IMG/VR virus record: IMGVR_UViG_3300025122_000122
Coordinates: 1 to 27,052 of that record
From: a virus
DNA: 27,052 nt
Strand: one strand, 5' to 3'
Part shown: piece after piece, positions 3,508 through 22,895 of the stretch
Position numbering within the stretch: position 1 is the first letter of the stretch
Layout: each line of letters opens with the position of its first letter
The notes under the pieces: model-generated
Database searches by the model: none
What the model was told of the DNA's origin: nothing
The model's input: only the letters and a program-made list of their open reading frames with translations
Position numbers and translations under genes: made by a program

Positions 3508-6500
3508 ATGGCCGAACAGACATTCAGATCGCCAGGGTTCTTCGAGAGAGAGATAGATCTCTCTCAGAGAGAGCAGGAGATCATTGGTACTCCAGGAGGA
3601 GTCATTGGAACTGCTGAGATGGGTCCAGCATTCGTTCCCGTCACTGTCGGCTCTTTTTCTGATTTTAGCGCCAGATTTGGAGAGCTAGATTCCACTAGAT
3701 TTGGACCGTATGCGGTTAATGAATTTTTGAAGCATCGTACAGCTCTCACTTATGTTAGAGTTCTTGGTGCTGGAGCCAATGAGACGTCCACCGACATCGA
3801 AAATACTCGCACCTATGGCACAGTTAAAAATGCAGGGTTTCAGGTGGTGGGCAGGGCCCCCACTGGAGCAGGAGTGGGACAAGGTGGCGTGCATTTCTTG
3901 TGTGCACGTCATCACGTGTCTGCCTCCTTAGAGGCAGTGGGATATCCTATCTTCTCTGATAATGACAGCTATGCATTAGCATCTAATGTTGCAAATCTTG
4001 TAAGAGGGGTTTTATTTCTCGCCACAGGGACATTTGCCCATGTTCTAGATTATAATGAGAATTTTCCTAAGTGGGGACTCTACTACGGCAGAGATGGGAC
4101 TGATTTATGCACAATTGGACCCAACGCAGATCCATACATGAAAGGAAAATTTAAGTTCATACTCTCAAGCTCAACTTCCGGTGCCAATTTTGGAAACGAT
4201 CAGGGAATCGCCGGCGTGAGAATTCTAACAGCCTCTCTTGATCCAGCCAATAAATCTTACATTGCTAATATTCTTAATACTGACCCGGGTAGATTTCAGA
4301 TCGATGAGCATCTTCTTTATCTAGATTTCGCTGTTGAGAATGAGGTTGCAACAGTTTCCACTCTGACGAGCTCTGTGGGTCTTGTGTCCGGAAGTTTAGC
4401 AACTGATTCAAAAAGCTCGGTGGCCTACAGAGATATCTATGGAAGATATGATACTCGATATAGTCCATCTACAACTCCCTCAATTATTTCGCAACCTTTT
4501 GGAAATAAAGAATATGATCTTTTTAGCTTTGAAACGATTTCAGATGGTGGTGCATCAAGTGATAAATATAAGATATCTATCTCTAATATTCAACGGTCAA
4601 TAAATCCACAAAGTGAGTATGGCACATTCACTGTTGAGGTTAGAAAGTTTGACGATACTGATACCAATAAGCAAACTGTGGAGCAATATCCGCTATGCAC
4701 TCTTGATCCCAATGATGATGATTTTGTTGCAAGAAAAATCGGAGATTTTAAGGTGGTGTTTGACTTTGATGCTGAGGATAAGGGTGAGAGAAGACTCTCC
4801 CTTTCTGGAAAATATCCTAATATTTCTTCTCGAGTGAGGATAAAAATGAGCACGCCCTTTGAGGAGGGAAATGTTCCTAAGTCAGCATTACCCTTCGGGT
4901 TTAAGGGAATTCCTGTCCTTAAGACAACTACAGGAATAACTGATTCAGAGGTAGGAACCAATTTGCTCTGGTGTTCAGGAAGTGTTAACACTAATGATGT
5001 CCTCGTAACATCGAGGACCTCTTTGACCTCGTCTATTGTTCCTCCACTTCCTTTTACATTTAAAACTACCCGAGGAGCAGTCAACACAAGCCCATCAATA
5101 GCAGCAGGATCACCTGGAGATGATGAGATTGCTGATAGCAGATACTACTGGGGAACAAAAGTTACTACACTTCCCCAGACATCCTCCTTAGCTAAAGCAA
5201 TCTTTAATTCAAATGCCAGCTCTAAAATTAATGAGCTTGTGAGGTCTTATACCAAGTTTATGGGAATTTCCAAGATGGGAGGTCTTCTGACAGGAACACT
5301 TGTGAATGATGTTAATGATAATAAATTTACTCTTTCAAGAGTAGCACTTTTTAATACTCTCGGGGGCAAAACTCTCAACAATGCAGTGGGTGCTGAAATA
5401 ACAGGATCACAAAACGAGCACATGCTTGAAGCCTGTTATCTCAGAAATGGTAATCCTGATGCGACTAATTATACGATAACAGATGGAGTACGGGCCGATA
5501 GACTAACACTAGCGTCTCTCCTCGCTGTAACATCCTCAGTTTATTTTAATAAATTTGCTGATTATAACAAATTTACGACACTATTTTATGGTGGCTTTGA
5601 TGGAAATAATATTTTAAATGCTGATATGAGAAAGATGGATGATAGAGCTTCTTCTGCTGATACAGGAGGCCTGGCAGTCGCAGACCCAAATGTTGGTCTC
5701 TATGCATACGGAGGAACCACAGCCTGGAACGCCGGCCTGGCAGATAAGAATAATACAGTGGCCTCATATCGAGCTGCTTCTGAAATAATCTTAGATCCAA
5801 TGCAAACTAGAATCAATCTCCTTGCAATCCCAGGCCAGAGGGATTCATACGTGACTGATTATGTTCTCGGTCTAACGAGTGATTATGCTCAAGCTCTATA
5901 TTTGCTAGATCTAGCTGCATATACTGACGACGGCACCCGAGTATTTGACAACGACACCAATATAAATAAGGTAGACGTGACCAAGACCTCAGAAAATTTT
6001 GATGGTCGAGCCGTTAATAACAACTATGCTGCCGCTTATTTTCCCGATATTTCTATCAATGATGATGAAAATGGCAGGCCCGTTCGGGTACCATCTTCCG
6101 TAGCCGCGATGGCAGCTATAGGATTTAATGATTCGATTGCCTACCCTTGGTTTGCTCCAGCTGGATTTAATCGTGCAGCTCTTGATTTTGTGGTTAATAC
6201 AGCTGCGAGATTAAATAAGGATGATAGAAATAAGCTGTATGACGCAAGAATTAATCCGATTGCCTCTTTTCCAAATGCTGGATTCGTAATATTTGGACAA
6301 AAAACTCTGCAACAGGCCAAAAGCGCTCTGGACAGGGTTAATGTTAGAAGAATGCTTCTTGAGGTTAAGAGAGTGGTTGGAAAAGTGGCTAACAAGATAG
6401 TATTTGAGCAGAATAATGCGGAGACCAGAGCAAGGTTCGTTTCTCAGGTGACTCCTCTACTGGCACTCATTCAAAGTCAACAGGGAGTCGACCAGTTTAA

Positions 6501-6645
6501 AATAGTCTGCGACTCCAGCAACAATAGCGATGAAGATGTTGAAAGTAATAGGTTGAATGGTAGAATTGTGGTTGTTCCCACTCGAGCTGTAGAATTCATT
6601 GCTATTGATTTTATTATTACCACATCAGGAGTGATCTTTGTTTAA
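3508..6645 (+). CDS. 18: Contractile tail sheath protein gp18, first copy
   Basis: Sheath subunit that polymerises around the gp19 tube and contracts during infection. The N-terminus has the sheath signature (FRSPGFFEREIDL, then GGVIGTAEMGPAFVPVTVGS and a YVRVLGAG strand), equivalent to the SPGIELKET and GKFQWGPAF segments of T4 gp18. The C-terminal core has YPWFAPAGF near residue 878, FGQKTLQQAKSALDRVNVRR near 930, and a final beta strand EFIAIDFIIT, the part that in contractile sheaths links neighbouring subunits. At 1045 residues it is much longer than T4 gp18 (659), so the surface-exposed middle domains are enlarged. ATG 3508 has AGGAG 8 bases upstream. It is followed by a second, diverged sheath gene. 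Confidence 0.92.
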   Translation: MAEQTFRSPGFFEREIDLSQREQEIIGTPGGVIGTAEMGPAFVPVTVGSFSDFSARFGELDSTRFGPYAVNEFLKHRTALTYVRVLGAGANETSTDIENTRTYGTVKNAGFQVVGRAPTGAGVGQGGVHFLCARHHVSASLEAVGYPIFSDNDSYALASNVANLVRGVLFLATGTFAHVLDYNENFPKWGLYYGRDGTDLCTIGPNADPYMKGKFKFILSSSTSGANFGNDQGIAGVRILTASLDPANKSYIANILNTDPGRFQIDEHLLYLDFAVENEVATVSTLTSSVGLVSGSLATDSKSSVAYRDIYGRYDTRYSPSTTPSIISQPFGNKEYDLFSFETISDGGASSDKYKISISNIQRSINPQSEYGTFTVEVRKFDDTDTNKQTVEQYPLCTLDPNDDDFVARKIGDFKVVFDFDAEDKGERRLSLSGKYPNISSRVRIKMSTPFEEGNVPKSALPFGFKGIPVLKTTTGITDSEVGTNLLWCSGSVNTNDVLVTSRTSLTSSIVPPLPFTFKTTRGAVNTSPSIAAGSPGDDEIADSRYYWGTKVTTLPQTSSLAKAIFNSNASSKINELVRSYTKFMGISKMGGLLTGTLVNDVNDNKFTLSRVALFNTLGGKTLNNAVGAEITGSQNEHMLEACYLRNGNPDATNYTITDGVRADRLTLASLLAVTSSVYFNKFADYNKFTTLFYGGFDGNNILNADMRKMDDRASSADTGGLAVADPNVGLYAYGGTTAWNAGLADKNNTVASYRAASEIILDPMQTRINLLAIPGQRDSYVTDYVLGLTSDYAQALYLLDLAAYTDDGTRVFDNDTNINKVDVTKTSENFDGRAVNNNYAAAYFPDISINDDENGRPVRVPSSVAAMAAIGFNDSIAYPWFAPAGFNRAALDFVVNTAARLNKDDRNKLYDARINPIASFPNAGFVIFGQKTLQQAKSALDRVNVRRMLLEVKRVVGKVANKIVFEQNNAETRARFVSQVTPLLALIQSQQGVDQFKIVCDSSNNSDEDVESNRLNGRIVVVPTRAVEFIAIDFIITTSGVIFV

Positions 6646-6684: not shown

Positions 6685-9600
6685 ATGCCAGAGCTGACAT
6701 TTAAAAGCGCGGGAGTAAGTTCTCGAGAAATTGATCTAACATCCCCGTCACCCAGAAGACCTTCAGGGGTCCCAGCTGGAGTAATTGGAACTGCTGATGC
6801 GGGTCCCGCATTTGTTCCCGTTACTGTAGGCAGCATGTCTGATTTTACCACCGTGTTTGGAAATACAGACGGTGAAAAGTTTGGGCCTCTAGCTGTAAAC
6901 GAGTGGTTCAAGAATGCGCAAGCCTTGACCTATCTTAGGGTCCTCGGAGCTGGCGACGGAAAAAAGAGAGCCACTGACGGATCAGTGACGAATGCTGGAT
7001 TTGTTGTAGGTGAGCAGCAGGTGCAGGACAATGGAATAGTCGGGGCCAATCCGTATGCTATTGAGCTAGGCGAGCCCGGTAGATCCTATTTTCTAGGTTG
7101 CTACATGTCTGATTCTGCTGGATCCACCTATCTTAAGGACGCGGGATTGCAGGAGGCAGGGCTGTCAAGAGCCCACGCCATAATTCGAGGAGTGCTATTT
7201 GCAGCATCCGGGGTCATTCCATTGCTATCAGGAAGTAACACTGGAAATAATAATCAACCTTCAAGCACTGTGGCAATGCGTGACGAAGCTGTGGCCGTCG
7301 CTTCAGGCGGAGGAAATATTACAGGTTCTGTGAATCTGTCTGACGGAGGGTCCGAGTTCAAGCTGATCTTAAACGGTCACAAGTGGGCATCAGATGCTCC
7401 CAACTTCATCACCGCTTCCTTTGATCCTGCTAGCCCGATGTATTTTGCTAACGTCTTTAATCGAAGCCCGTTTGATCTCGAAAAGAAGGGCCATTATCTT
7501 TATACCCACTATGATGTCCATCCGGCTATAGCAGTGGTCACCGGAACACAGGTTTTAGTAAGTAGTGGATCCAACGCTCTCCTCGGAGGAATTGGAAATC
7601 ATAATGATTGTGCCTTTATTCTCACCTCCTCTCTTGGAAGAGATGCAGGATCTAGTACAGTTCCTGACTATGAGCAATTTAGGGACAGATTTAGAACGCC
7701 GTTCTCTCCCTATGTGGTGTCACAAAAGTTTGGATCGGTAACATACGATCTCTTTAGAGTCCATGCCCTTTCTGATGGTGAGGTTCCCAATCATAAGTAC
7801 AAGGTATCTGTTGAAAACATTAGACCCTCCACCTCAGACACCTATCAATATGGATCTTTTGATCTAGTGGTGAGAGACTTCTATGATAACGATCGTGAGA
7901 AAGTTGTCCTAGAGCAGTTTAGAGGGGTCAATCTGGATCCCGACTCAGATAGATTTGTCGCCAGGATCGTGGGAGATCAGAGAACATTCTTTGAATTTGA
8001 TAAGACATCCGACGCACAACGAATTGTGGTGGATGGAGACTACACCAATAAGTCCAATCGAATTAGAGTCCAGCAGTCCTCAAAATTAAAAGCTGGTCAG
8101 GTTCCTGCCACAGCACTTACCGTGGGTCACCGAGGTGTTTATCATCTGGTCACCTCTGGAGCCCAGGGAACAGCCACATGGGCATCACAGATTCTTGCTA
8201 ACGTCAGCTCCGGCACAACCGGAGACACCAAGTTCGGAGATGGCTCAATAAATGCCAACTACTTTGCTCTTGGTCTTTCGCAGTCTCTGGGTTGGGCAGT
8301 GGAACCCCCCGTTCCATTCAGAGATAATATCTATGTTGGAACCGGAGAGCAAAGAGCAGTTGATTCTCAACTTTATTGGGGAATGCAGTTTTCTCGGAAA
8401 ACTAGTGCAACGGAACCCAATAAAGCAGGTCTATTCGATAATACTTTCAATAGTTACGCAGGATTCTTTCCGTACTACCAAGTAACCAATAGAAATGTTT
8501 GGGTGGGTAACAATCCTGGAACAGCTGATGTCAACGGAGCAGTTTTAGATTCAGACAGGTTTAATAATAACATCTTTAGTTTAGAAAGGCTAAAGGTTAG
8601 AACTGGGTCTGACACCAACGCAGATCCGCTCTATTGGGTGAGTGCTTCTTATTCACGAAAAGGAGGGATTGCTACTGATGAGGCTACAAAGACAAGAGCT
8701 TTTAATGTGGATGATCTTAAGGTGATGGGAAATCGGACATATGCAAAATTCTCCTTTTTCTTACAGGGTGGCTTTGACGGATTAAATATCTTTAATAAGG
8801 ATAAATTTAAGATGGACAACAACGCTGCTAAGAGAGAGATGGATGATTCCACAAGCCAGGGTGGGAAAAACGGGCCCACAGTGGCATCTTATAGAAAAGC
8901 ACTTGATGTCATGGGAAATGAATCTGATGTTGACATAAAACTCTTAGCCATTCCAGGAATGAGACACAGCTCGATTTCGGATTACGCTATTTCAGTGGTG
9001 GAGGATAGATTTGACTCCCTGTACATCATGGATATCGAGGAAAGGGATACACTTAATAATGTTGTCACTTCATCAGCAGTTCAAAAGATAGGCGTGGGAA
9101 ATACTGTGGAGGCGTTTAAAAACAGATCTCTAAATACCTCATTTGCTGCAGCTTATTTTCCTGATGTCGTCTTACAGGATCCCACAACCCTGACTAACGT
9201 TAGGTGTCCCCCCAGTGTGGGTGTTTTGGGAGCATTTGCTCTGAACGACGCCGTGGGACATCCTTGGTTTGCACCTGCTGGATTCAGTAGAGGATCCCTT
9301 AACAATATTCTCTTTGCTGCAGTAGAGCTTAAAAGGGATAACCTGGATGAGCTCTATGATGCAGACATTAATCCCATTACTGACTTCCCTGGAACTCGTG
9401 TGGTAGTGTGGGGACAGAAAACCCTACTTGCTGCGCAGTCGGCACTGGACAGGGTTAATGTTAGAAGGCTGCTAATTGAGATTAGAAGAAAAGTTCGTGC
9501 TGTTGCTAACACTCTGCTATTTGAACCCAACAGAGCAGAGACTCTCAATAAGTTCTCCGCCCTGGTGAATCCCATCTTGCAGAGCATACAAGAGAGAAGC

Positions 9601-9759
9601 GGAGTGGAAAGATATAAGGTATTAATAGATACGACCACCACCACCCAGGCAGACGTTGAAAATAACACCATAAGAGGAAAAATATTCCTCCAGCCCACCA
9701 AGACGGCAGAGTTTATTGCCCTCGATTTTGTGGTTACCAATGCCGGAACTGAAATTTAA
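6685..9759 (+). CDS. 18: Contractile tail sheath protein gp18, second copy
   Basis: A second full-length sheath protein of 1024 residues, clearly paralogous to its upstream neighbour along the whole length. Shared landmarks include the N-terminal GVIGTADAGPAFVPVTVGS, a central FGSVTYDLFRVHALSDG (upstream copy: FGNKEYDLFSFETISDG), the HPWFAPAGF core motif, WGQKTLLAAQSALDRVNVRR, and a terminal strand EFIALDFVVT. The copies differ in the middle domains and in many core positions, so this is an old duplication and not an assembly repeat. It has its own leader with a late-promoter-like box and CGGAG before ATG 6685. All landmark segments are intact, so both proteins could be made and could form a mixed sheath, or one could be specialised for one end of the tail. 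This division of labour is inferred. Confidence 0.92.
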   Translation: MPELTFKSAGVSSREIDLTSPSPRRPSGVPAGVIGTADAGPAFVPVTVGSMSDFTTVFGNTDGEKFGPLAVNEWFKNAQALTYLRVLGAGDGKKRATDGSVTNAGFVVGEQQVQDNGIVGANPYAIELGEPGRSYFLGCYMSDSAGSTYLKDAGLQEAGLSRAHAIIRGVLFAASGVIPLLSGSNTGNNNQPSSTVAMRDEAVAVASGGGNITGSVNLSDGGSEFKLILNGHKWASDAPNFITASFDPASPMYFANVFNRSPFDLEKKGHYLYTHYDVHPAIAVVTGTQVLVSSGSNALLGGIGNHNDCAFILTSSLGRDAGSSTVPDYEQFRDRFRTPFSPYVVSQKFGSVTYDLFRVHALSDGEVPNHKYKVSVENIRPSTSDTYQYGSFDLVVRDFYDNDREKVVLEQFRGVNLDPDSDRFVARIVGDQRTFFEFDKTSDAQRIVVDGDYTNKSNRIRVQQSSKLKAGQVPATALTVGHRGVYHLVTSGAQGTATWASQILANVSSGTTGDTKFGDGSINANYFALGLSQSLGWAVEPPVPFRDNIYVGTGEQRAVDSQLYWGMQFSRKTSATEPNKAGLFDNTFNSYAGFFPYYQVTNRNVWVGNNPGTADVNGAVLDSDRFNNNIFSLERLKVRTGSDTNADPLYWVSASYSRKGGIATDEATKTRAFNVDDLKVMGNRTYAKFSFFLQGGFDGLNIFNKDKFKMDNNAAKREMDDSTSQGGKNGPTVASYRKALDVMGNESDVDIKLLAIPGMRHSSISDYAISVVEDRFDSLYIMDIEERDTLNNVVTSSAVQKIGVGNTVEAFKNRSLNTSFAAAYFPDVVLQDPTTLTNVRCPPSVGVLGAFALNDAVGHPWFAPAGFSRGSLNNILFAAVELKRDNLDELYDADINPITDFPGTRVVVWGQKTLLAAQSALDRVNVRRLLIEIRRKVRAVANTLLFEPNRAETLNKFSALVNPILQSIQERSGVERYKVLIDTTTTTQADVENNTIRGKIFLQPTKTAEFIALDFVVTNAGTEI

Positions 9760-9822: not shown

Positions 9823-10314
9823 ATGGCTGAAACACTCGCCGTAACGGACATGCTTCCCAACAAATTCGAACCCAAAAGAAAATTTCGATGGGTTTTTCAG
9901 CTCGAGGGAGTAGATGCGTTCCTTATGAAGACGGCAAATAGACCAACATTCACATTTGAGGAAGCTAAGCTGGATTATATTAACTCTTTTAGGTATCTTG
10001 CTGGAAAGATGACCTTTAATGAGCTGGAGTTAACACTATATGATCCCATCGCCCCCTCAGGAGCTCAACAGGTGATGGAGTGGATTAGAACTCACTACGA
10101 ATCTGTCTCAGCCCGCGCAGGATACGCTGATTTCTACAAGAGAGACTGCCAGCTTAAACTTCTGGATCCGGTTGGAACAGTTGTGGAGCTTTGGGATATA
10201 AAGGGAGCATTCATTAAATCAGCTAACTATCAGGATTTAGATTATGCTGCTACCAATGAGCCAGTTGCTATTACTCTCTCGCTCAGATTTGATAATTGCG
10301 TGTTACAGTTCTAA
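9823..10314 (+). CDS. 19: Tail tube protein gp19
   Basis: Major tube subunit whose stacked hexameric rings form the DNA channel inside the sheath. The length (163 residues) equals that of T4 gp19. The N-terminus carries FEPKRKFRWVFQLEGVDAF, typical of T4-like tube proteins. A ITLSLRFDNCVLQF ending matches the final beta strand of the family. The middle contains ELELTLYDPIAPSGAQQVMEWI, also typical. ATG 9823 has AGGAG 9 bases upstream. It lies directly after the sheath genes as in T4 (18-19) and is followed by an intrinsic terminator. The TATTTAATA at 9794-9802 may be a variant promoter box. Confidence 0.93.
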   Translation: MAETLAVTDMLPNKFEPKRKFRWVFQLEGVDAFLMKTANRPTFTFEEAKLDYINSFRYLAGKMTFNELELTLYDPIAPSGAQQVMEWIRTHYESVSARAGYADFYKRDCQLKLLDPVGTVVELWDIKGAFIKSANYQDLDYAATNEPVAITLSLRFDNCVLQF

Positions 10315-10423: not shown

Positions 10424-11281
10424 GTGTCAGTTGACGATAGATTAAAGAAAAACCAGGTCTTTGGAGGTTCTGATATAGCTGCTGGAATGCCCACCAGCAA
10501 CGTTGTGGCAGATGACTTTGGTTGGGAGGTTCCGGTGGAAACTGTTCCTGTACCGTCAGAGGGAAAGACCTATCCGCCTGGATCTTCTTTACACGGGCTA
10601 AAGACCATAGACATCCGAGCCATGACAGCTCGGGAGGAAGATATTCTCACCTCTAGAGCTCTCATCAAAAAAGGAACAGTTATTACTCACCTGTTAAATT
10701 CATGTGTGGTAGATAAATCTATTAAAGTTGAAAATATGCTTTCTGGTGACCGAAACGCTCTAATGGTAGCTGTGAGAATAACAGGATACGGGACTAGCTA
10801 CAGAGTGGATGTAACGTGTCCCGAGTGCAACGAAAGATCAAACCAAGATCTAAGCTTAGGGGATCTCCCCATTAAAAGGCTTCAAATAGACCCGGTGGAA
10901 ATTGGAAAGAATTTATTTTCATATACACTCCCAGTTACCGGCAAGGAGGTATATTTTAGATTTCTCACAGGAAACGATGAGGAAGAGATGTCTGTTACTG
11001 CAGAGAGAAAAAGAAAAATGATGCCTGACTCACATTCTGACTCTCTGGTGACCTCAAGACTTGAAAAGTCTATCGTCTCAATAGACGGGGTATCTGATAG
11101 ATCCAAGGTAAATGCCTTCATTAGAAGCATGCCAGCTCAGGATTCTAGAAAGCTGAGAAATTACATAGAAGAAAATGAACCAGGAATTGAAATGAAAATC
11201 TGGATGGGGTGCCCGCGCTGCTCGGAGGATTCTAAAGTTCAGCTTCCTCTCAGTAGCGGGTTTTTTTGGCCTCGAGACTAA
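10424..11281 (+). CDS. 26: Baseplate hub / tail assembly chaperone, gp26-like (T4_baseplate family)
   Basis: 285 residues resembling the T4 gp26 baseplate family, which acts in hub assembly next to the tape measure gene. Visible landmarks are EVPVETVPVPSEGKTYPPGS near residues 35-54 followed by IDIRAMTAREEDILTSRALI, typical of this family in many myoviruses. Two CxxC pairs, CPEC and CPRC (near residues 132 and 264), could bind zinc. The start is GTG 10424 with AGGAG 5 bases upstream. The last codons run through GGG TTT TTT TGG and then stop, while a +1-frame ORF overlaps and continues, which suggests programmed frameshifting. T4 gp26 is 208 residues, so this copy is longer. Gene identity is good; the exact role (hub part or chaperone) is inferred. 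Confidence 0.75.
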   Translation: MSVDDRLKKNQVFGGSDIAAGMPTSNVVADDFGWEVPVETVPVPSEGKTYPPGSSLHGLKTIDIRAMTAREEDILTSRALIKKGTVITHLLNSCVVDKSIKVENMLSGDRNALMVAVRITGYGTSYRVDVTCPECNERSNQDLSLGDLPIKRLQIDPVEIGKNLFSYTLPVTGKEVYFRFLTGNDEEEMSVTAERKRKMMPDSHSDSLVTSRLEKSIVSIDGVSDRSKVNAFIRSMPAQDSRKLRNYIEENEPGIEMKIWMGCPRCSEDSKVQLPLSSGFFWPRD

Positions 11282-11302
11282 CCATCGAGAAGTGTTTCTC
11301 GA
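11258..11302 (+). promoter_or_regulatory. Candidate programmed frameshift site at the gp26-like / small ORF junction
   Basis: The gp26-like frame reads GGG TTT TTT TGG at 11258-11269, 9 bases before its stop codon. The seven T residues (11261-11267) let the Phe tRNA re-pair perfectly after a +1 or -2 slip. Either slip enters the frame of the downstream 64-codon ORF, which has no stop between the slip site and its GTG. A 7-bp hairpin, TCGAGAA / TTCTCGA (11285-11291 with 11296-11302), follows, and its 4-base loop holds that GTG. A CTCGAG at 11271-11276 could pair with CTCGAG at 11298-11303 as an alternative stem. No good ribosome binding site precedes the GTG. Function is inferred. Confidence 0.5.
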
Positions 11303-11486
11303 GCATGCTTTTCTTCTTCAATACTATTTGGGACTCTCCTATACTGAGTGCAGAAATATTCCAATTCAGTACAGGGTATGGTTCATCAATAGGGTGACTG
11401 CAGAGATCAAGAAGACAGCAAAAGCAAAATCATCTCGAGGATCAGACTCTAGAAATATAGATTTTGGATCAAAGAAATTCTCCTAA
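11292..11486 (+). CDS. Small tail-assembly protein or frameshift extension of the gp26-like chaperone
   Basis: The frame is open well upstream of the GTG at 11292, which lacks a ribosome binding site and lies in a hairpin loop. If entered by a slip in the T-run it would add about 73 residues to the gp26-like protein. The sequence (FLEHAFLLQYYLGLSYTECR, then IPIQYRVWFINRV) has the aromatic helix and LPxxxRxWFI-type pattern of small ORFs found after gp26-like genes in other myoviruses. In T4 the gene after 26 is 51, another hub-assembly factor. The C-terminus is basic and serine-rich. Whether it is a separate protein or only made as a fusion cannot be settled from sequence; the location just upstream of the tape measure region supports a tail chaperone role. 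Confidence 0.6.
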   Translation: MFLEHAFLLQYYLGLSYTECRNIPIQYRVWFINRVTAEIKKTAKAKSSRGSDSRNIDFGSKKFS

Positions 11487-11540: not shown

Positions 11541-12077
11541 ATGCTTGAAATATTTTTTCAGATTCTAGGAGGGTGGGTCTATTCTCACCTATCAGAATAT
11601 TCAATTCATCGATGGATATTGCACAAGGCAGGCAAGAAAAGGGGACACCTTTTTTCATTTCACTTTCACTCTCATCACTTCAGTGCCAGAAAGAATGCCA
11701 TGTTTGACCCCTCTTATGATCATCTCCGATGGGATGCTCACGGAAAGGAGTTAGCATCGTTACTTTTTCTGGCAATTGTTCACTCTCCGCTCGTGATGAT
11801 CTGGCCGTGGTCCTATGGGACTATCCTATTCTCCATCACCTCCTATTATCTGATTCACCGCAGAGCCCACACAAAGCCTGAATGGGGCAGGGTTTTTCTA
11901 TCCTGGCACTATGATCATCACATGGGCCCGGATCAAGATAAAAATTGGGGAGTTCGAACAGCGTGGCTGGATACCCTTTTCAGGACACGGGAAAAGTACT
12001 ACGGAACTCGACGAGAGAGAATTGAATTTCAAAGAAGATTGATTAGAACACTAAATAGACAAAGAAGACTGAGATAG
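11541..12077 (+). CDS. Membrane fatty acid hydroxylase-like protein (auxiliary metabolic gene)
   Basis: A 178-residue protein of the fatty acid hydroxylase / sterol desaturase superfamily, di-iron membrane enzymes that hydroxylate or desaturate lipids. All histidine boxes are visible: HRWILH (23-28), HFHSHH (41-46), HRRAH (106-110) and HYDHH (123-127), followed by NWGVRTAWLDTLFRT, the usual closing motif. Hydrophobic segments at about 1-17, 71-90 and 92-105 fit a membrane protein. ATG 11541 has CGGAG 7 bases upstream. It sits between tail chaperone genes and the tape measure gene, where no metabolic gene is expected, on the same strand and with similar composition. The likely role is altering host membrane lipids or carotenoid-like compounds during infection; the substrate cannot be predicted. 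It could be a cargo gene acquired by the phage. Confidence 0.85.
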   Translation: MLEIFFQILGGWVYSHLSEYSIHRWILHKAGKKRGHLFSFHFHSHHFSARKNAMFDPSYDHLRWDAHGKELASLLFLAIVHSPLVMIWPWSYGTILFSITSYYLIHRRAHTKPEWGRVFLSWHYDHHMGPDQDKNWGVRTAWLDTLFRTREKYYGTRRERIEFQRRLIRTLNRQRRLR

Positions 12078-12126: not shown

Positions 12127-14532
12127 TTGGCCGAAATAAGCACTGAAGAACTTAGAACTCAGGCAGAGTTAATTAGCACCATAAATGCTAGTCTGAGAAC
12201 CACGAATACAGAGCTCCAAAGCGCTGCGGGGTGGGCTGCAGCTATGTCTCGATCACTTCGAGATGAGCTTGATGAGCTTGACGGGGACCTCGATAGAATT
12301 ACTGCATCGATGTCGAGATATACCGGAAGCGTTGAAGGAGGGGTGGCCAGTGCCTCCTCAAGCATTAGGGACTTGGCCTCTGAGGCTACGGAATCTGTAA
12401 ATCGATCTACAAGCAATGCTAGCACTGCACTTCAAAAAGCTACATATGTGGTGGATGAGGTATCAGTACAGGCTCAAAATGCAACTGAATTTATGCTCGG
12501 AAAATTTGATGAGATGTATGGATATCTAAGCAAGGATCACTGGATGAGTTTTAGATACTATCTTTACTCGATAAGAGATCAGTATGGCGGCGCTTTCGGA
12601 GACATGAGCAATGCAAATCAGGAGTGGTCGGATAGCATGGTGGCGCTAGGAGCCAGTCTCTACTCTAACTTCAGTCAGCCCATTGATGGCACAATGCTTA
12701 GCATGCGGAATATGTACGGGTCCATTGAGGAGACCCGAGAAGTTCTAGAGGCCATGACGAAGGATGTGGGATTCACCTTTATGTTTCTTCGGGATCAGAC
12801 TGAGGAGACCCTGGTGGATCTCAATGTCTATAGAAAAGGCTTGGGACTCAGCGCCGAGGAGCTCAGGGTATTTCTAGAAAGGCAGCAATCTCGATATACA
12901 GATAGCAGCAATGATATGCTTGATGAGGCAGCAATCTATGCTAAACGCATGGAGGCTGGCTTTGGAATCCCAGCCAAGGCCATAATACAAAATGTCGTTG
13001 GAATGACCGAAGCCACCAACACCTTTGGAAACATGAGCCAAAAGTCCATGGCTGCAGCATCCACACAGCTCACCCGACTAGGTCTGGATTACAGTCATAT
13101 GGATTCTCTAGTGAGCGGATTCACAGGATTTGAGGGCGCAGCATCTAAGGTAGCTGATCTAACTGCGGCATTCGGACTCCAAATTGACACAATGGACTTA
13201 GTGCAAGCAGCCAATGAGGATCCTCTCAAGGCCATGGAGATGATTCGACAGGCCATGCAGGACACCGGAATGGATGTTAGAGACCTTGGAATGCAGGAGA
13301 AAAGGTTCATCGCTGACAGACTCAATCTTGCAGACATAGGCGTTGTGGAGAAGTTGTTTAGCCCTGACGCTGCAACAGAGTCCATGGAGGACCTCTTAGC
13401 AGCAGCGGAGACGGCTGCTGCTGGGGTGGACGAAACATCGGCTGCTGCCCTCCTTGAGGCGGACATTGCTCGGGTAACAGACTCAGTTGATAACATGGGA
13501 GCCAGTCTCTCTGAGGCATTTGGTGGGGAAGCAGCTCAGGCAGCATATGAGGTATTTACACACAATGCTGCTGTAGCTTCTCAGAATTTAATTGAGTTTG
13601 GACAGGATGCAGTTAGTGTTGGAGCCCAGGTAACTCAGCAGGGATTAGAACCTATAAATCGACTGGCCGGAGTGGCTATTGAGAGATTTGAACCCTTTCT
13701 CGAGATCTTTAAAAATCTACAGCCTGTTTTAGAGGAGCTGACAGTAGTATTAACTACATTTACTGAAGCTGTTGCTACGGGAATAGAAGAGAACCTATTG
13801 CCTTCTGAAGAGGGAATACAAGAACTTGTTACTTCCTGGAACGAGGGAGTAGGGAAGATGATAGACGGAGCTATCCAGAAACTCGGTGCATCTAATTTTG
13901 TTGGAGAGGTCATTGAGACATTTTCTGGAGTTACAGCGCCATTTTTCGAGATTGGTCAAGGCTGGGCAGAAAGCATTTTTCTCGGTATGAAAACTCAAGG
14001 TGCAGATCAAGTCGATGAAGTGATTGACTCCCTTATTGAAGGAGTCAACGGCGCTCTCGAGTTGGACTCTCCGTCAAAAGTTGGCATGCGTCAGGGCGCG
14101 GACTGGGCAGAAGGAATAGCCTTAGGCCTGGACACAGGAATATCTAAGTTGGGAGATGCCATGTCCATTCCTGAAATACCCATAATAGAACCCTTAGCAG
14201 CTGCTGCTATCGACATATCGGAACAGGGAGCAAACTGGGTAGAAGACATAGCCCTAGCGCTGGACACAGGAATATCTAAGTTGGGAGATGCCATGTCCAT
14301 TCCTGAAATACCCATGATAGAACCCTTAGCAGCCACTGCCATCGACATATCAGAGAAGGTTAGCAAGTTTAATGAGCAGCTGGTGAGTCGGGTAATTGAG
14401 GCGAGACAAAATCAGCCTCCAATTCACCTAAATATCTCTCTCAACCTTGATCAACAGGGAATTACCGCTCTCTCTAGGGCCCTCGTTCAGCCTAATGATG
14501 ATGGTTTCTCTCTTGCGTCCGTAACAACTTAG
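12127..14532 (+). CDS. 29: Tail tape measure protein
   Basis: 801 residues, helix-rich, rich in Ala, Glu, Ser and Met, with a coiled-coil-like N-terminal third (about 1-125), a central region with repeated small-residue helices, and a Pro-containing C-terminus with the PSKVGMRQGADWAEGI pattern common in tape measure proteins (DSPSK...G...GI). These proteins fill the tail lumen and set tail length; T4 gp29 (590 residues) is the positional equivalent. The start is TTG 12127, with AAGGA 6 bases upstream, giving MAEIS, similar to other starts here. Two 44-residue tandem repeats at 657-700 and 701-744 are almost identical in their second half. It follows the chaperone genes as usual, except for the hydroxylase gene in between. 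No peptidase domain is visible. Confidence 0.82.
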   Translation: MAEISTEELRTQAELISTINASLRTTNTELQSAAGWAAAMSRSLRDELDELDGDLDRITASMSRYTGSVEGGVASASSSIRDLASEATESVNRSTSNASTALQKATYVVDEVSVQAQNATEFMLGKFDEMYGYLSKDHWMSFRYYLYSIRDQYGGAFGDMSNANQEWSDSMVALGASLYSNFSQPIDGTMLSMRNMYGSIEETREVLEAMTKDVGFTFMFLRDQTEETLVDLNVYRKGLGLSAEELRVFLERQQSRYTDSSNDMLDEAAIYAKRMEAGFGIPAKAIIQNVVGMTEATNTFGNMSQKSMAAASTQLTRLGLDYSHMDSLVSGFTGFEGAASKVADLTAAFGLQIDTMDLVQAANEDPLKAMEMIRQAMQDTGMDVRDLGMQEKRFIADRLNLADIGVVEKLFSPDAATESMEDLLAAAETAAAGVDETSAAALLEADIARVTDSVDNMGASLSEAFGGEAAQAAYEVFTHNAAVASQNLIEFGQDAVSVGAQVTQQGLEPINRLAGVAIERFEPFLEIFKNLQPVLEELTVVLTTFTEAVATGIEENLLPSEEGIQELVTSWNEGVGKMIDGAIQKLGASNFVGEVIETFSGVTAPFFEIGQGWAESIFLGMKTQGADQVDEVIDSLIEGVNGALELDSPSKVGMRQGADWAEGIALGLDTGISKLGDAMSIPEIPIIEPLAAAAIDISEQGANWVEDIALALDTGISKLGDAMSIPEIPMIEPLAATAIDISEKVSKFNEQLVSRVIEARQNQPPIHLNISLNLDQQGITALSRALVQPNDDGFSLASVTT
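14095..14358 (+). repeat. Tandem 132-bp repeat inside the tape measure gene
   Basis: Copy one is 14095-14226 and copy two 14227-14358, each 44 codons in frame. The protein copies share the pattern GA(D/N)W.E.IAL.LDTGISKL, then GDAMSIPEIP and IEPLAA.AIDISE. A stretch of more than 50 bases starting at CTGGACACAGG is identical between copies, including silent positions, while the copy starts differ at many bases. This suggests recent duplication or local gene conversion. Confidence 0.92.
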
Positions 14533-21656: not shown

Positions 21657-22895
21657 ATGACCTCTCCGGGTGTAAATTTACTCATGAATGTGTGTTTGCA
21701 TCGGAGAATGCTTGGTACTCGAAGACATCTGGACTGTGACCTCAATAGTCAAGAGTTTCGATGGACAAGCTCTATTCCAGACGAGAGCTGGATTTTCGGA
21801 GGAGGTGAATCTGAGAAAAAGAGTTTAAATATAATTCTTGAGTCTCTCAGAAAGTCTGTGAAAAGTTATCCCGCTGATTCTCATAAAAGGTCGTGGGAGA
21901 TAATTAGACCTGCTGGAATCAATAATGTTAAGTGGTATTGGGCTCTTCCCGATGAGACCTTTAAAAAGTATATTTCTGAGCTGCTAGATCAGCTTAGGTT
22001 GTTACTTGAGGAGGTGGATGATACATACTATACCCGAGAGATGGGCACGATTAGAGAGCTTCTCATAGACCTTCATCCGGCGAAGATAGATAGGAAAAAA
22101 TATTCTCTAATTGAGACAACAGAAAAAAATATGACCAATCTTCACACCCTGAAGAGCTTTAGACCTGATCAGTCAGGATACGCAAAAAAAACTATCTATA
22201 GCCACTCATCCTCGGTCACTGGAAGGCTTACAGTAAGATCAGGTCCCAACATTCTCACCTTAAAAAAAGAAAGTAGAAAAATTTTATCATCCCGATATTC
22301 GGATGGAGAGATAATGCACATCGATTTTGTGAGCCTTGAGCCCAGAATCATTCTAGCTGCTGCAGGTCAGGAAACACCCAGGGATCTCTACACTCACATC
22401 TCTAACAGTGTCTTCGGAGGAGAGGTCTCTAGGGAGATGTCAAAGATCTCAACGCTTAGCGCAATTTATGGAATGTCTCCTTATCGATTTAAAAGGAGTA
22501 CGGGAAGATCAGATGCTGCTAGAGTTTTAGGAGAGGTGAGACAATATTTTGGAATATCCTCCCTGGGAAGAAGACTTAAAAAGCAGATGGCAGATAAGGG
22601 TTACATAACGAATCTGTATGGCAGGCGGATATTTCCAGACTCAGACCTCTCTCATCTGCTGGTAAGTTACTACGCGCAGTCTTCCGGGGTAGATGCAGCA
22701 CTCCTGGGATTTTCACAAATTGTGCAGGAGATTAAAAAGGATGATTTATCTGCTCTTCCGCTGTTTGTGATTCACGATGCACTGATAATCGATGTAAAAA
22801 AATCACACGTAGAAGATCTTGTAAGAATAATAGGTGATGGGTTAAGCTTAGAAAAGCTCTCGGGAAAATTTCCCATGAGCATTGAAAAAATTTAA
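21657..22895 (+). CDS. Exonuclease-less family A DNA polymerase-like protein
   Basis: 412 residues with the PolA palm and fingers landmarks in order: LKSFRPDQSGY then SSVTGRLTVRSGPNIL (about 165-200, template/primer contact, as TGRLSS..PNLQN), motif A HIDFVSLEPR with catalytic D223, motif B R259...K263...L267...YG272 (O-helix), GYITNLYGRRIFPD (315-328) and motif C VIHDALIIDV with D374. Both catalytic Asp residues remain. The usual HDE of motif C is HDA, and the Phe/Tyr of the O-helix (Taq F667, E. coli F762) is Leu. The N-terminal ~150 residues are not recognisable as 3'-5' or 5'-3' exonuclease. T4-like phages replicate with family B gp43, so this is an extra polymerase. Start ATG 21657 lacks a clear ribosome binding site; in-frame ATGs at 21684 and 21708 are alternatives. 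Confidence 0.85.
   Translation: MTSPGVNLLMNVCLHRRMLGTRRHLDCDLNSQEFRWTSSIPDESWIFGGGESEKKSLNIILESLRKSVKSYPADSHKRSWEIIRPAGINNVKWYWALPDETFKKYISELLDQLRLLLEEVDDTYYTREMGTIRELLIDLHPAKIDRKKYSLIETTEKNMTNLHTLKSFRPDQSGYAKKTIYSHSSSVTGRLTVRSGPNILTLKKESRKILSSRYSDGEIMHIDFVSLEPRIILAAAGQETPRDLYTHISNSVFGGEVSREMSKISTLSAIYGMSPYRFKRSTGRSDAARVLGEVRQYFGISSLGRRLKKQMADKGYITNLYGRRIFPDSDLSHLLVSYYAQSSGVDAALLGFSQIVQEIKKDDLSALPLFVIHDALIIDVKKSHVEDLVRIIGDGLSLEKLSGKFPMSIEKI

Follow-up and report, generated by a model that had tools for sequence, protein, structure and literature searches.

A predicted +1 frameshift at a conserved Phe-Phe-Trp site probably joins the two domains of a gp26-like tail assembly chaperone in a viral DNA record

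The locus described here raises the question of whether a gp26-like tail gene and the small open reading frame (ORF) overlapping its 3′ end are two separate genes or are joined by a ribosomal frameshift, and in which direction such a shift would go. The window, that is, the whole stretch of 27,052 nucleotides that was analysed (IMG/VR record IMGVR_UViG_3300025122_000122, positions 1 to 27,052), was found to contain both reading frames on the plus strand. The sequence comparisons given below argue strongly for a tail assembly chaperone (TAC) made in two isoforms from this locus, with a putative chaperone function, and it is equally to be expected, with high confidence, that a programmed +1 frameshift at a T-run yields the long form (TAC-NC) from the gp26-like ORF.

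The short form, TAC-N (10424-11281, plus strand, 285 aa), starts at a GTG codon preceded by the Shine-Dalgarno (SD) sequence AGGAG and was found to match PF12322 T4_baseplate (1.1e-17) and phrog_150 (7e-21) in profile searches. The AlphaFold model of TAC-N had a pLDDT of 87.7 and its best BFVD match was the baseplate hub subunit of SP-15; a PDB structure search with the model gave nothing significant, with HK97 gp13 (2ob9) listed at E = 2.6 and probability 0.23. The 3′ end of TAC-N was found to read AGC GGG TTT TTT TGG CCT CGA GAC TAA (...SSGFFWPRD in the zero frame), and the ending GGG TTT TTT TGG shortly before the stop, as it was described in an earlier note on this DNA, was confirmed in its coordinates and in its T-run. 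The seven T's occupy 11261-11267 within the slip site TTT TTT TGG C (11261-11270), followed by the presence of the zero-frame stop TAA (11279-11281) four codons past the start of the TGG codon. The P-site TTT (11264-11266) re-pairs at +1 onto the TTT at 11265-11267; the zero-frame A-site codon is TGG (11267-11269) and the corresponding +1 codon is GGC (11268-11270).

The +1 frame was found to be open from about 11193 to a stop at 11484-11486, with the translation FFGLETNHREVFLEHAFLL..., and the earlier reading of this frame as open through the junction held both in the window and in the relatives listed. The extension in this frame, TAC-C (11268-11486, plus strand), contains 72 residues from GLETNHRE to KKFS, for which the AlphaFold model predicts three helices (7-23, 27-32, and 35-58; pLDDT 78, and above 90 in the core); no significant match to this model was found in BFVD. 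Across 69 closed nonredundant loci, TAC-C was found to span 72-95 codons (median 87). Nucleotide diversity by codon position (first/second/third) was 0.42/0.28/0.64 for the domain in the +1 frame and 0.43/0.28/0.66 for its part beyond the zero-frame stop, which is a coding-type pattern. DUF6760 (PF20546) matched 31 of 55 TAC-C members (best 1.2e-7); the window's TAC-C by itself had no PF20546 match in the Pfam search, and the literature search gave no mention of DUF6760.

The IMG/VR scan gave at least 80 loci with relatives at 50-63% identity. All of the 80 relatives listed were found to have Phe-Phe-Trp-Pro or Phe-Leu-Trp-Pro close to the zero-frame stop, which lies 3-6 codons past the slip site, and in all 80 the +1 frame was open across that stop; four of them (L011, L014, L059 and L067) end at contig ends. 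The slip codons of the 81 sequences listed (the window and the 80 relatives) were TTT TTT TGG CC in 60, TTT CTT TGG CC in 18 and TTC TTT TGG CC in 3, with YUU followed by U (TTT TGG or CTT TGG) in every one of the 81. Searching with the small domain as query yielded L081 (TTT TTT) and L082-L084 (TTC TTT) in addition. The TTC TTT TGG variant was found in 6 loci (L009, L039, L042 and L082-L084), and it had at least three independent origins on the tree, where it is represented by 5 loci; the slip-type changes on the tree numbered 4, one of them for CTT. TTT TTT TGG CCT was also present in four MAG contigs (L109-L112) and in the more distant L113 (36% identity). The presence of the T-run or a one-base variant of it at the same place in all relatives listed is far more than expected by chance. 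The earlier note had suggested testing whether the T-run, a hairpin and the open overlap are conserved among relatives and the GTG codon in the hairpin loop is not; this was found for the T-run, the overlap and the GTG, and was not found for the hairpin. In L114, a Paracaedibacteraceae MAG contig, AAC TTC TTT CGG CCC was found near 3792 and the C-domain again lies in the +1 frame; here TTT_CGG_C takes the position of TTT_TGG_C.

The small ORF could be a separate gene, started at the GTG at 11292-11294 (plus strand) or at an internal codon, with no frameshift at all. This GTG exists in the window, where it opens 64 codons, and small separate ORFs are annotated at this place in SP-15, immuto and Mel-JY01. 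The GTG was found to lack a ribosome binding site, as was already stated in the earlier note, and it is judged not to be a start. In 65 of the 69 loci no ATG, GTG or TTG was present within the first 15 codons past the slip, and the ATG at codon 17 or 18, which sits inside the first TAC-C helix, was preceded by an SD in 0 of 60 loci. Both domains are, besides, carried in one chain by T4 gp51, and the synonymous constraint found on the slip site would be unneeded for an independent gene. A separate gene is considered very improbable. The programmed frameshift proposed in the earlier note gained support from the relatives listed, among which neither an SD with an own start for the small ORF nor a stop in the overlap was found.

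Synonymous constraint was analysed in 155 conserved codon columns of 74 nonredundant loci as codon uniformity relative to each gene's own usage. The six top columns of the 155 (z about 5.8 or more) were all located within the last 14 codons of TAC-N, and in this ancestry-uncorrected test the two Phe codons scored 5.9 and 5.8, the other four columns being Pro CCT (11.6), Ser TCG (8.6), Glu GAG (6.8) and Ala GCC (6.6). The rest of the TAC-N gene, used as internal control, had a mean z of 0.67 (sd 2.0) over all columns in the same test, which ignores shared ancestry. The constraint on CCT is attributed to the overlapping +1 codons GGC CTN (Gly-Leu), and the +1 frame would therefore be translated already before the zero-frame stop.

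The earlier note had proposed a slip of either +1 or -2, of which +1 was found to be much better supported. The +1 re-pairing works for every variant, with P-site YTT moving onto TTT and the A site changing from TGG to GGC; re-pairing is imperfect for CTT TGG, the variant with Leu, as it is in RF2. A Mu-like -2 slip would lead to the same downstream frame and to an unchanged fusion protein with one extra Phe. Mu-like phages are known to shift by -2 in their TAC genes, the seven T's of the window permit perfect -2 re-pairing, and TTT CTT TGG would let tRNA-Leu move onto UUC with one wobble. In the recurrent TTC TTT TGG variants (at least three origins), however, -2 re-pairing is broken and a -2 slip is ruled out because tRNA-Phe would need to sit on UCU, with a middle-base mismatch, whereas the +1 re-pairing stays perfect; overall, we regard the -2 route as quite unlikely. 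The junction peptide would be VQLPLSSGFFGLETNHR by the +1 route and VQLPLSSGFFFGLETNHR by the -2 route, and the zero frame gives VQLPLSSGFFWPR. The letters of the slip site are TTTTTTTGG, with TTCTTCTGG as synonymous counterpart and TTTTTTTAG as replacement for the A-site TGG.

Lambda and the cyanophages shift by -1, and S-PM2, P-SSM2, HTVC008M, Cr30 and phiM12 do so at the homologous site: at their Phe-Phe, which is homologous to that of the window and reads T TTT TTC/T, the C-domain was found in the -1 frame. In every relative listed, however, the conserved domain lies in the +1 frame, and in most of them the -1 frame closes about 2-21 codons from the stop, usually at the TGA in CCTGAC just before it. 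The reading frame excludes -1 as the route to TAC-C, and its probability is negligible. Slippage of RNA polymerase on the T-run would give a mixed mRNA population, for which seven consecutive T's are available in the window and in most relatives listed; yet the shifted frame was kept without a homopolymer in TTTCTTTGG, whose longest run is 3 T and which was found in 19 IMG/VR loci or named phages, and in TTCTTTTGG (longest run 4 T), and there is very little chance that this explanation applies.

Under the preferred reading, a programmed +1 frameshift, most ribosomes would stop at the zero-frame TAA, with the short TAC-N as product. In a minority of ribosomes, Phe-tRNA would be paired with the second TTT at the P site while the single-codon Trp TGG waits in the A site, and a one-base forward slip from UUU_UGG_C to UUU_GGC would be followed by the reading of 72 more codons, giving TAC-NC with its helical C-terminal domain. 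Pausing at TGG may help the slip, and we infer both that the shift occurs and its efficiency. By analogy with lambda gpG/gpGT, the tape measure protein would be coated by many TAC-N and few TAC-NC molecules, and recruitment of the tube protein would fall to the C-domain. Frameshifting in tail chaperones fixes the relative amounts of two proteins that control tail assembly.

The element GGAGG (11224-11228, plus strand), located within TAC-N, is the most conserved cis element. Synonymous constraint was found in the relatives at the codons TCG GAG GTG of this SD-like element, and a match to an SD over 5 nt or more was present in 66 of 74 loci, against 42 expected from synonymous shuffling, and absent from 8 loci. 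The distance from GGAGG(TG) to the first slip codon was 20-22 nt in 60 of the 66 loci having an SD match, and 32 nt in the window; to our knowledge, this is too far upstream for any known SD effect on frameshifting. The element may be a stimulator of unusual geometry or may have another role. A general internal start after the element was considered and rejected, the frame-0 codon 6 before the first Phe being ATG in 28 of 74 loci and CTT in 14. An RF2-type stimulation of an earlier shift was likewise rejected, a +1-frame stop being present between the element and the T-run in several relatives (for example, L053 and L066).

The window was also found to contain a 7-bp stem (11285-11291 paired with 11296-11302) with the GTG at 11292 in its loop. 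The presence of this hairpin was correctly described in the earlier note; its significance and its conservation were not borne out, as the fold at the window junction had z = +1.2 against shuffles (180 of 200 shuffles folded equally well or better) and no 3′ structure was conserved in the relatives (mean z -0.22 over 72 loci). The hairpin (11285-11302) was rejected as a stimulator, the fold signal being absent from the window and from the 72 relatives.

In T4, PF12322 was found to match gp26 as well as the N-terminal portion of gp51, and gp51 therefore corresponds to TAC-N plus the C-domain. The expectation of the earlier note that a fused form would be unusual in T4-like phages failed on this point, as gp51 itself is composed of TAC-N and TAC-C, and cyanophages fuse the two by -1. 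The TAC-C of the window and its relatives (the window group) matched the distant +1 phages at 98.1% in profile comparison, and the cyanophage and T4 gp51 C-terminal domains at 81.6% in hhalign (E 1.1e-5, 55 columns). The fused alignment had a weak direct hhalign score against single T4 gp26 or gp51, and the relationship was settled by the PF12322 match to both proteins. A tblastn with a short, approximate T4 peptide gave no match and was disregarded.

The +1 arrangement was found to be kept in Flavobacterium phage immuto (TTT CTT TGG) and in Microcystis phage Mel-JY01 and Rhodothermus phage RM378 (both TTT TTT TGG). In Bacillus phage SP-15 and in LIS04, GXN1, BRock and LR756508, the C-domain was also present in the +1 frame with different slip codons. 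SP-15, LIS04 and GXN1 (L085, L088 and L092, respectively) have CC CGA TTY in common just before the TAC-N stop, and may slip at NCC_CGA rather than at Phe codons. The records of SP-15, immuto, LIS04, Mel-JY01, BRock and RM378 contained no annotated joined TAC product, and neither did those of GXN1 and LR756508; in the six records named first, the C-domain is left out, cut short or entered as a hypothetical gene of its own, and the annotation is corrected by joining the C-domain in these records.

The direction groups were +1 at YUU_UGG_C (window group, immuto, Mel-JY01 and RM378) versus -1 at U_UUU_UUC (cyanophages, HTVC008M, Cr30 and phiM12), followed by a third arrangement, the single-frame fusion, in T4 gp51 and two contractile-injection-like bacterial loci. 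Upstream of the -1 site, GGAGGG was found at about 10 nt in S-PM2, P-SSM2 and Cr30. An SD-like sequence about 10 nt upstream is the classic arrangement for a -1 site and stimulates -1. In cyanophage-type TACs, the -1 site U_UUU_UUC is preceded by GGAGG at a distance of about 10 nt, whereas the window group combines +1 with an SD-like element 20-22 nt upstream. It is conceivable, as a tentative reading held at less than even probability, that one chaperone site switched its frameshift direction in evolution, the SD-like element moving from about 10 to 20-22 nt as a stimulator of an undescribed kind. A homologous site that is read +1, -1 or as a fusion provides a natural comparison of direction set by a few bases near Phe-Phe.

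Among the bacterial sequences, single-frame fusions of TAC-N-like and DUF6760-like parts were found in the loci L120 (859-1623) and L122 (reverse complement 799-1677) of bacterial genomes, with 255 and 293 codons of open frame, respectively, like T4 gp51. In the contractile-injection-like loci L119 (reverse complement 1115-1665) and L121 (1130-1674), a short TAC-N-like ORF was found to overlap an ORF for DUF6760 that lies in the -1 frame. The DUF6760 frame of L119 contained no ATG, GTG or TTG before the domain, and a frameshift may therefore operate there too.

A two-isoform TAC made by frameshift is already known in phages. The TAC-N/TAC-NC of T4-like phages belong to the same PF12322 family and have a related C-domain, with short and long forms as in the window; T4 has two genes (gp26 and gp51), whereas the window has a predicted frameshift in one. 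The lambda gpG/gpGT pair, which uses -1 at G_GGA_AAG, is unrelated in sequence to the window TAC; this pair and its relatives were reportedly described by Xu, Hendrix and Duda in 2004. The +1 site of prfB (RF2), CUU_UGA_C, is like that of the window in that the P-site YUU slips onto UUU using a base of a UGN codon. RF2, however, has a stop codon in the A site and an SD 3 nt upstream of the slip codon, whereas the window has the sense codon UGG, with the stop 3-6 codons later in the relatives listed, and the SD-like element of its group lies 20-22 nt upstream; the window site is RF2-like in re-pairing only.

The source given for the T4-like TACs in PMC10274946 and PMC12846349 is Vladimirov, Gautam and Davidson 2022 (Virology 566:9-15, PMID 34826709). 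PMC12846349 also describes polyT -1 signals within the TAC-N genes of T4-like phages and, for Pseudomonas phage Adele, a -1 site with the sequence GTTTTT. G-T frameshifting was described as widespread 'except T4' in PMC5009743, where the TAC of the haloarchaeal myovirus HSTV-2 was called 'very likely +1'. The HSTV-2 TAC resembles the window in being a +1 frameshift in a contractile-tailed virus, and its gene family differs from that of the window TAC because it had no PF12322 match. Less documented are a +1 shift at a sense Trp codon, a switch of direction between lineages and a distant SD-like element. As judged from the citing papers, it is not certain that the +1 direction is new within the T4-like TAC family.

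The TAC gene was found between a gp19-like tail tube protein gene (9823-10314, plus strand; phrog_4542, 4.5e-28), which precedes TAC-N, and a downstream gene for a probable tape measure protein (12127-14532, plus strand, 801 aa), with a short extra ORF also intervening in the window. The tape measure gene was assigned from its position, its length and synteny with annotated phages, and had no family match in the Pfam and PHROG profile searches. The intervening ORF (11541-12077, 178 aa), located between TAC-C and the tape measure gene, has its own SD and contained the histidine-box motifs HRWILH, HSHH and HYDHH, as in fatty acid hydroxylases/desaturases; it had no match in Pfam, PHROG, NCBIfam or PDB and was missing from all relatives retrieved, its sole partial relative (44.7%) being in Acinetobacter phage MD-2021a. 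The adjacent ORFs 3508-6645 and 6685-9759 (1045 and 1024 aa) were alike in their N-termini and C-terminal regions and gave no match in an NCBIfam search; from their position before the tube gene, they are probably paralogous tail sheath proteins. The tail module was also found to contain a 412-aa family A DNA polymerase-like ORF at 21657-22895 (PF00476, 3.6e-14).
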